A stretch of 64,000 nucleotides of DNA from assembly GCA_945868725.1 (NCBI GenBank), contig CAMBMU010000003.1:1-64000 (forward strand), written 5' to 3'. The position numbers and the translations under genes are program-made. This document shows, piece after piece, positions 21,923 to 61,813 of the stretch (positions within the stretch are counted from its first letter, which is position 1; each line of letters begins with the position of its first letter). A model generated the notes under the pieces. It had not been told where the DNA came from, made no database searches, and saw only the letters and a program-made list of their open reading frames with translations. Origin of the DNA: Spirosoma fluviale (GTDB lineage Bacteria; Bacteroidota; Bacteroidia; Cytophagales; Cyclobacteriaceae).

Positions 21923-22483
21923 ATGAATTATTTATTGGTCGGATTAGGGAATATTGGCCCTGAATACGAATTGACTCGACATAATATTGGTTTCCTTACG
22001 CTGGACCGCCTCGCTGACAAAGAGGGAGCGGCTTGGAAAAGCGATCGCCTGGCCTTCAAAAGTGAATTCAGACACAAAGGCCGAACGATTCACCTCATCA
22101 AGCCCACTACCTACATGAATTTGAGTGGAAAGGCTGTCAACTATTGGATGAAAATCTTAACTATCCCCAAAGAAAACATCCTAGTTCTCGTAGACGATGT
22201 GGCCATCCCTTTTGAAAAATTACGGATGCGCCCCAAGGGAAGTGCTGCAGGACACAATGGACTCAAAAATATCGAAGAACTATGTGGAGGACAAGACTAC
22301 CCCCGGCTTCGCATGGGTATTGGAGACAATTTTCCCAAAGGAAGACAGGTGGACTACGTTTTAGGTAGGTTTACCCAAGAGGAACTGGATGCGTTACCCT
22401 CCATCCTAGACAAAGCCATCTCCATGGCTTTGGGATTTTGTACGATAGGAATCGATCAGACGATGACCCAGTTTAACGACTGA
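21923..22483 (+). CDS. pth: peptidyl-tRNA hydrolase
   Basis: YLLVGLGNIGPEYELTRHNIGF; HNGLKNIEELCGGQDYPRLRMGIG. Confidence 0.97.
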   Translation: MNYLLVGLGNIGPEYELTRHNIGFLTLDRLADKEGAAWKSDRLAFKSEFRHKGRTIHLIKPTTYMNLSGKAVNYWMKILTIPKENILVLVDDVAIPFEKLRMRPKGSAAGHNGLKNIEELCGGQDYPRLRMGIGDNFPKGRQVDYVLGRFTQEELDALPSILDKAISMALGFCTIGIDQTMTQFND

Positions 22484-22494
22484 TTTTTTAATCT

Positions 22495-22620
22495 GATTAT
22501 CCGCAATCATGCCAGTGGCTCATCATGCCTATTTAAAACTGCGGATAATCGTTGACAGACCATAGGCCACGGCCTACAGGCTTTCAACGGTCCACAGCTC
22601 ATCTTATTGAACCTCAAACC
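22495..22620 (+). repeat. Intergenic repeat copy: 11-bp IR hairpin plus heptad words
   Basis: GATTATCCGCA (22495-22505) / TGCGGATAATC (22540-22550), then GTTGACAGACCATAGGCC..TCAACGGTCCACAGCTCAT..TTGAACCTCAAACC; same module in inverse orientation at ~51478-51584. Confidence 0.85.
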
Positions 22621-22716
22621 TTTTTTTCTTTCGTTAGAAGTTAAAAAGCGGACAACCAGATTTTTTAAATTTGGAATTACGATTCTATCCTTATTTATTT
22701 GTACACTTTAAGGTAC

Positions 22717-22820
22717 TATTTTATAAAGAAGAGGCGAGAGAATAGGCTCCATGACCCTCTGGCAACCAGCTCCACAGTAGAGCAAGGTGCCAAAACCTAC
22801 CCTTCGTGGGAACTATAAAT
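22717..22820 (+). ncRNA. SAM riboswitch (SAM-I-like)
   Basis: AAGAGGCGAGAGAATAGGCTCCATGACCCTCTGGCAACC...AAGGTGCCAAAACCTACC; directly upstream of a methionine-biosynthesis transsulfuration enzyme. Confidence 0.85.
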
Positions 22821-22915
22821 TGGCGTAACTCTCTCTACCCCTCTTTCTGGTTCATCTACTGCTTTGGGAAATTTCTTATGAAATAGCCACCTGAGCTCAA
22901 TTTACTCGAACCTAT

Positions 22916-51301: not shown

Positions 51302-51477
51302 AGCAAAAAACGAATGGGGAAAGGTACGCGAAATAAATTAGGTAAAAATTCGCTTTCCACCTGTTTTCCTAGGATTTTGAGTGTTCAGCGATTCCCTCCC
51401 AGTGGAAAGGGAGTTATCAACTAAAGATAATTGTCTTTCTGATTATCCATTTTTTCAGCACTAACCAGAGAAATAAG

Positions 51478-51584
51478 GTTTGAGGTTCAATTAGGTGAGC
51501 TGTGGACCGTTGACTGTGGTCTGTCAACGATTATCCGCAGTTTAAATTAGGCATGCTGAGCTACTGGCATGATTGCGGATAATC
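51478..51584 (-). repeat. Inverse-orientation copy of the hairpin plus heptad-word repeat
   Basis: GATTATCCGCA (51529-51539) / TGCGGATAATC (51574-51584), with adjacent TTGAGGTTCAATTAGGTGAGCTGTGGACCGTTGACTGTGGTCTGTCAAC. Confidence 0.85.
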
Positions 51585-51606
51585 ATTATTTTCTATTTTT
51601 GCTGCT

Positions 51607-54605: not shown

Positions 54606-55022
54606 TTAATTTTTCTTTTTCCCAAACTCTTTTCCTATAATTCCCTTTTCTTGCATCATTTTAAACAATTCAGGATCTTGTCTTTTCATTTGTTTTAATC
54701 TTGGCACATAACTCCTTGCAGTTTCTTCCATTTCTTTATCCAACTTGTTTAAAACAGGATCATTGTCAAAATCTACTTCAGAATACCTCTTTTTGAAAAA
54801 TAGTAAAGCTCCACTTAGAAGCCAAAGAAATAAACCTGTCCATAAGTTCCACGAACCTTTACCATCTTCTCCTTTGTTTAAAGGATCTCCTTCAGGAGAC
54901 AAAAAGTAAATGAAGAAAATCCCCCAAAAAAATAGGAGATATAACACCGTATAAGATGTCACTAATTTAACGAATATCGAATTTTTTTTGAACCATTTTG
55001 GGTTATTTTTTGATTTTTTCAT
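54606..55022 (-). CDS. membrane protein of unknown function (family copy 1)
   Basis: Two hydrophobic helices; GEDGKGSWNLWTGLFLWLLSGALLFFKKRYSEVDFDNDPVLNKLD shared with 55398-56012. Confidence 0.7.
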   Translation of the reverse strand: MKKSKNNPKWFKKNSIFVKLVTSYTVLYLLFFWGIFFIYFLSPEGDPLNKGEDGKGSWNLWTGLFLWLLSGALLFFKKRYSEVDFDNDPVLNKLDKEMEETARSYVPRLKQMKRQDPELFKMMQEKGIIGKEFGKKKN

Positions 55023-55397: not shown

Positions 55398-56012
55398 TTA
55401 GCTTTTATGTTTAGAATCACTGGTTGATTTTTCTTTCGGGTTTAGTTTCTCATTATTTGAATCTTCATCTTTAAAATCATCAAGATTAACCAATCCAGCT
55501 TTTACTAATTTATCGAAATATTCAGGATTTTCTTTTTTCATTTTTTTTAATTTTGGAATTTGACCCCTATTGATTTCAAACAGTTCATCATCTAACTTGT
55601 TCAAAACAGGATCTTCGTCAAAATCCACTTCAGAAAATCTCTTTTTGAAAAACAATAAAACACCACTTAGGAGCCAAAGAAATAAACCTGTCCATAAGTT
55701 CCACGAACCTTTGCCATCTTCTCCTCTGTTTAAAAAATCTCCTTCAGGTGACATAAAATAAATAAAGAAAACTCCCGCAAAAAAAAGGAGAAATAACACC
55801 GTATAAGATGTAATTAGTTGAAGAAAAATAGAGGGGTTTTTAAATGCACTCAAAATATCTTTAAAATTGATCACCAAAGCACCAGTCCAATAGAACAAAC
55901 CGATCAGTACTTGAAACGTTTCCCCTATTCCTATATCTACCTTCCAATCTTCAATAACTCCAATAAAGAGGAACCCCAACACAACTAAAACAATTGACAG
56001 TAGATTTTTCAT
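55398..56012 (-). CDS. membrane protein of unknown function (family copy 2, longer N-terminus)
   Basis: Paralogue of 54606-55022 with extra N-terminal hydrophobic segments. Confidence 0.7.
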   Translation of the reverse strand: MKNLLSIVLVVLGFLFIGVIEDWKVDIGIGETFQVLIGLFYWTGALVINFKDILSAFKNPSIFLQLITSYTVLFLLFFAGVFFIYFMSPEGDFLNRGEDGKGSWNLWTGLFLWLLSGVLLFFKKRFSEVDFDEDPVLNKLDDELFEINRGQIPKLKKMKKENPEYFDKLVKAGLVNLDDFKDEDSNNEKLNPKEKSTSDSKHKS

Positions 56013-56253: not shown

Positions 56254-56320
56254 GCGGCACGGTTTTCGACATATATGGGCAGGTATTCCTGCTCCAGGTC
56301 ATCCCAGAGCACCAAGAGGT
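56254..56320 (-). pseudogene. 67-bp duplicated fragment of the 57770-58033 gene
   Basis: 65/67 identical by eye to 57861-57927, same orientation. Confidence 0.8.
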
Positions 56321-57769: not shown

Positions 57770-58033
57770 TTACCCTACCCTCGATTCAGAAAACAAATCG
57801 TAGGCAGCCACGAGCAGTTGCTGCGCGGGGGAAGTACCGTATTTTTCATAGCCTTGTATGGCGGCACGGTTTTCGACATACACGGGCAGGTATTCCTGCT
57901 CCAGGTCATCCCAGAGCACCAAGAGGTATTCGTAGGGTATTTTGCTTTCACGCCCGCGCTCCAACCAGGAGTTAAAGCGCCCTTCATCTAGGGGTTTGGG
58001 GTATTCCGAACTGTTAAACATGGGATAACCCAT
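57770..58033 (-). CDS. hypothetical protein
   Basis: 87-aa ORF overlapping the luciferase-like monooxygenase stop region. Confidence 0.65.
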   Translation of the reverse strand: MGYPMFNSSEYPKPLDEGRFNSWLERGRESKIPYEYLLVLWDDLEQEYLPVYVENRAAIQGYEKYGTSPAQQLLVAAYDLFSESRVG

Positions 58034-61661: not shown

Positions 61662-61674
61662 ATTGATACAAATC

Positions 61675-61740
61675 GTCCACAGTTGGCAGACCACGGTCCA
61701 CAGCTCATTTAATTGAACCACAAACCCTATTTCCTTCCCC
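61675..61740 (+). repeat. Partial copy of the heptad-word repeat, lacking the hairpin
   Basis: GTCCACAGTTGGCAGACCACGGTCCACAGCTCATTTAATTGAACCACAAACCCTATTTCCTT; same order as the 22551-22620 copy. Confidence 0.75.
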
Positions 61741-61813
61741 CACAGATAAAAAAAAGGGAGTGATAAAATTATTTTTTTCTTTTTAAACGTTGAGGCGATT
61801 TTTGGAAGGCCAT

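Follow-up and report, generated by a model that had tools for sequence, protein, structure and literature searches.

Structure of the locus

The window, that is, the whole 64,000-nucleotide stretch of DNA analysed here, carries a pth ORF (21923–22483) and a SAM riboswitch (22718–22821; Rfam RF00162, 72 bits). Between them, as an initial annotation of this DNA had stated, lies a repeat, which we find to be a complete MITE of 169 bp on the forward strand (22492–22660, TCTGATTATCC...GGACAACCAGA), its ends being set by 145 aligned copies and by empty sites. The element is flanked by two exactly matching 8-bp target-site duplications, TTTTTTAA at 22484–22491, immediately 3' of the pth stop codon, and TTTTTTAA at 22661–22668. 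The left terminal inverted repeat (22492–22519, forward strand) is identical at 23 of 28 positions to the 3' end of L300, an IS1595-family element, and shuffled sequences (n = 200) reached 20 at best. The right terminal inverted repeat (22632–22660, reverse strand) is partly decayed in this copy, where 15 of 28 positions match the IS end; the right end of the consensus comes nearer to it. An internal third arm (TGCGGATAATC, 22540–22550, forward strand) is followed by a core of 7-bp words (GTTGACA GACCATA GGCCACG ..., 22551–22597, forward strand).

The internal arm pairs with 22495–22505, giving the hairpin GATTATCCGCA-34 nt-TGCGGATAATC. The initial annotation had placed this hairpin correctly, as it had the heptad words and tail. 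The end of the element at 22620, which it also proposed, had to be revised: aligned copies run on past this position through ...CTCTGGTTAGTGGTGAAAAAGCGGATAATCAGA, and the real right end, formed by a third arm, lies at 22660. The two arms of the hairpin are not the two ends of the element: the left arm is the left end, the second arm is the internal third copy, and the real right end had been missed.

The second copy in the window, described earlier as a reverse complement near 51.5 kb, spans 150 bp on the reverse strand (51438–51587); its arms reach 51584 and its flanks, TAGAAAAT and AAGACAAT, agree at six of eight positions. The tail-half copy reported near 61.7 kb is also present, as a truncated and decayed remnant with core and tail and without a left end (61671–61767, forward strand, right boundary approximate). 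The window contains other repeats as well: a direct duplication of 300 nt with 83% identity (54668–54967 and 55520–55819) and a direct repeat of 67 nt with 97% identity (56254–56320 and 57861–57927).

Copies, ends and target-site duplications

The host assembly comprises 2.8 Mb in 164 contigs and is 82% complete. A genome-wide BLAST search with the 126-nt repeat as the query gave 51 matches, and the element exists in dozens of copies in this bacterium and related ones. The exact 11-34-11 hairpin occurs in at least 44 copies, compared with none for the reversed control pattern, and the 10-bp arm has 184 exact occurrences, compared with one for its control; the earlier judgement that the repeat is not due to chance is borne out by these counts. 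The same layout was found across Cyclobacteriaceae. Based on predicted genes, 50 of 53 host copies are intergenic, whereas only 13% of random 150-bp stretches are.

Alignment of the copies, as the initial annotation had suggested, revealed consistent ends and 8-bp target-site duplications. The end profiles are aTGATTATCCGCAATcaTgCCAGTagc on the left and cTGATTATCCGCTTTtTcACCAgTAaCcAaAg on the right, which identifies the ends as terminal inverted repeats of about 30 bp. The length between the outer arms is 146–148 bp in most copies and 163–166 bp in a class with a longer core. The elements thus show the defining traits of MITEs: they are 147–169 bp long, have no coding capacity, carry inverted ends of about 30 bp and are dispersed in many copies.

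Across 145 copies drawn from several genera, the match between left and right flanks covers exactly eight positions, with no signal beyond them. Flank identity at these positions is 69–77%, compared with 32–54% in shuffled pairs. All eight positions are identical in 51 of the 145 copies, where 0.6 would be expected. Some of the copies depend on each other, as a few orthologues and overlapping loci are included, and exact arms served to retrieve most loci; neither point much affects a comparison against shuffled pairs. Tandem elements separated by copies of one 8-bp site were observed at L255/L256, L267 and L326, and look as if insertion recurs next to an existing end.

The pth-riboswitch region was compared with 61 genomes of the same genus. 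In eight of these, the gap between pth and the SAM riboswitch has no insert, and its alignment gives a clean empty site; in a ninth genome, G301, this site is occupied by the insert. Past transposition is documented at the sequence level, along with the end structure and the duplication length. The genome of Algoriphagus alkaliphilus DSM 22703 (that of L157) contains about 40 copies, six of which are mutually identical; the element family has therefore been recently active.

IS1595-family elements with the same ends

IS1595-family genes are present, and one in G301 is bounded by TATGTGTATCCG...TGCACGTCGCC, which resembles the MITE end. A genus-wide search with the protein encoded by this gene as the query identified relatives whose ends are those of the MITE (L300, L301, L302, L303, and L308). 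The same ends also flank L326 and L335, IS1595-family elements that come from further genera of the family. The complete elements are 1037–1042 bp long and have perfect 8-bp duplications: AAAGTTAA in L300, TTTTTTAA in L301, AAATATTA in L302, TTAAATTA in L326, and AATCATAA in L335. The duplication length of the MITE and of these ISs is thus equal, and 8-bp target duplications are the norm in the IS1595 family (PMC8101967). The transposases of L300, L302, and L285 match PF12762 and exceed the NCBIfam cut-off for IS1595 (NF033547).

At L326 in Belliella, an IS adjoins a MITE of the same architecture in the arrangement TTAAATTA-IS-TTAAATTA-MITE-TTAAATTA. The transposase frame of this IS has one stop. 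L326 belongs to G207; G207 and the Belliella aquatica record have an identical locus in common (L090 and L105).

An IS remnant of 44 residues, 77% identical to L300 and including the end, was detected in the host genome (contig C35). Neither the 82%-complete host assembly, where IS1595 fragments are located at contig ends, nor A. alkaliphilus, the site of the recent burst, yielded an intact IS whose ends are exactly these. We infer that the matching IS has been lost from the host genome or is missing from the incomplete assembly. In two further genomes (G337 and G195), the last 20–37 residues of IS1595 transposases occur at dozens of contig ends, a sign of a high-copy IS breaking these assemblies. 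Several candidates for an autonomous partner were rejected. Long elements between the same ends among the first loci (L188, L189, and L106) proved to be ordinary genes between neighbouring MITEs, and the genes examined next to orphan ends in A. alkaliphilus (a kinase, an oxidoreductase, a glycosidase, TauE, YhcG, and PIG-L) are not transposases.

In L300 (minus strand, 1478–1510), the stop codon of the transposase gene lies within the terminal inverted repeat (TGG TAT GAT TGC GGA TAA), so that the end sequence doubles as the coding sequence of the C-terminus, WYDCG.

Hairpin, internal arm and heptad core

The hairpin consists of the left end and the inverted internal third arm; it forms because this arm is complementary to the left end. 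Their distance is nearly fixed, with an offset of 45 in 81 copies and 46 in 31. None of 32 arm changes is compensated, so that there is no visible conservation of pairing as such. L103 is a hairpin-only element with near-matching flanks (TAATTTTA and AAATTTTA). It may have been moved as a unit by its left and internal arms, or have arisen through a deletion between the internal arm and the right arm, these two being direct repeats. The internal arm is missing from one subfamily in A. alkaliphilus and is thus not essential to all.

The 7-bp period of the core is strong over 130 copies, with an identity of 0.60 at lag 7 and 0.58 at lag 14, compared with 0.25 after shuffling. In Algoriphagus and Belliella subfamilies the words differ (GTCCACA, GTCCGAT, and GTTATTG), and the period is kept to varying degrees. 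The core may conceivably be a functional module that is selected for its period and not for its letters and that, together with the third arm and the near-fixed length of 147–148 bp, constitutes a defined complex for transposition or regulation, a reading we regard as doubtful. We claim no function for the core because such arrays could arise by replication slippage alone. A separate repeat at 144–393 of the window contains two 119-nt copies with a 131-bp period that are about 90% alike and have the same 7-bp words at their bounds. Its right part (CGAATCGGCTGTCGACAG) resembles the sequence 3' of some hairpins (L084 and L129) and may thus represent either a second module or an element related to this one.

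Discussion

In this study, the repeat between pth and the SAM riboswitch was characterized as a MITE with no gene of its own, very probably mobilised by the IS1595-family DDE transposase of a full-length IS elsewhere, as judged from sequence comparison. The earlier description of a modular, non-autonomous, MITE-like element was well founded, given the terminal inverted repeats, 8-bp duplications, empty sites, and the autonomous partner family found here. We assign the MITE to an IS1595-family IS and not to a REP/RAYT system because IS1595-family ISs have the same ends and 8-bp duplications, and because an IS and a MITE occur as a pair in Belliella. The identity of the ends with those of IS1595-family ISs is established by alignment. 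Action of the IS1595 transposase on the MITE in trans is suggested by the shared ends and duplication length, which are the usual argument for MITEs (PMC3852290).

We propose the following pathway. A full-length IS elsewhere would encode an IS1595-family DDE transposase, which would recognise both ends of the MITE (TNTGATTATCCGC...CCAGTA) and mobilise it. The MITE would then be inserted into AT-rich intergenic DNA through an 8-bp staggered cut. As for the internal third arm, it probably represents a spare end, oriented like the right end.

Other origins were weighed. A REP/BIME-type hairpin moved by a RAYT (Y1 tyrosine) transposase, the REP-like possibility raised in the initial annotation, would account for a small imperfect palindrome in many intergenic copies, and the genome does have three Y1_Tnp genes. 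However, none of these three loci has the ends described here, and the target duplications and IS1595 ends contradict this origin. Inverted ends with a target duplication are expected of a DDE transposase, and Y1 enzymes are not known to make inverted terminal repeats and 8-bp target duplications. There is also no REP-type tagging of a short palindrome of 20–40 nt as described in PMC3733652, and we consider a RAYT origin extremely improbable. A conserved structured RNA or regulatory hairpin that has spread by another route, for instance as a leader or attenuator ahead of the SAM riboswitch gene, would fit the perfect 11-bp stem, the constant spacing, and the strongly conserved arms. It is nevertheless very unlikely, as the riboswitch is the sole Rfam match, the arm changes are never compensated, the copies adjoin unrelated genes in every flanking orientation, and the eight relatives keep pth and the riboswitch without the insert.

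A different DDE transposase, of the IS4 family (IS10/IS50-like) or another one, could in principle have moved the MITE. The lead to the IS4 family was the CTGA at the start of many MITE right ends, which resembles IS10/IS50 ends. The only PF01609 gene of the host, however, has other ends (CACTAGTGTCCG), and PF01609 loci of nine genomes all lack the MITE ends, whereas IS1595-family elements have them; such a source is thus also highly improbable. Segmental duplication instead of transposition, considered initially in the form of a single event, is the least probable of all and practically negligible. No evidence in its favour was found, and it is contradicted by unrelated flanks, a private 8-bp duplication at each copy, and clean empty sites.

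The terminal sequence of the MITE and its 8-bp duplication are the same as in the IS1595-family (PMC8101967; NCBIfam NF033547) elements L300, L301, L302, and L326 found here, but the MITE has no transposase gene and is 147–169 bp long instead of about 1040. The internal third arm and the core of 7-bp words are absent from L300, the IS copy that was read; simple internal deletion of this IS therefore does not account for the MITE interiors. The BrickBuilt MITE of Porphyromonas gingivalis (PMC4596501), also from Bacteroidota, likewise has a tandem-repeat core, IS-like ends, and intergenic locations. Its ends are of the IS5 family and about 12 bp long, its unit is 23 bp, and its duplication length is not consistent, in contrast to the IS1595-family ends, 7-bp unit, and consistent 8 bp here. 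MITECca01 of Cardinium (PMC9769881) is another high-copy, mostly intergenic Bacteroidota MITE whose parent IS is known by its ends; it is 240 bp long with an IS982-family parent, whereas the parent family here is IS1595. The elements share with REP/RAYT systems (PMC3733652) a short intergenic palindrome in many copies, and differ in having no RAYT association and in their inverted terminal repeats and 8-bp duplication. The intergenic 7-nt tandem words recall heptanucleotide direct repeats such as TAACTGA of Beggiatoaceae (PMC4679880), but the words of the MITE form the core of a transposable element, with letters that vary between subfamilies. In open-licence papers, we found no earlier account of a MITE derived from IS1595 in Algoriphagus or its family. 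From its sequence features, the element is a MITE, very probably an IS1595-derived one, and its internal anatomy is unusual.

A conspicuous class of repeats in Cyclobacteriaceae is explained here as one transposable-element family. With the ends, the target length, and the enzyme family identified, it becomes possible to annotate the copies and to use them as markers of insertion between species. The family also lends itself well to the question of why a 7-bp tandem core and an additional internal end are retained in short elements that encode nothing.
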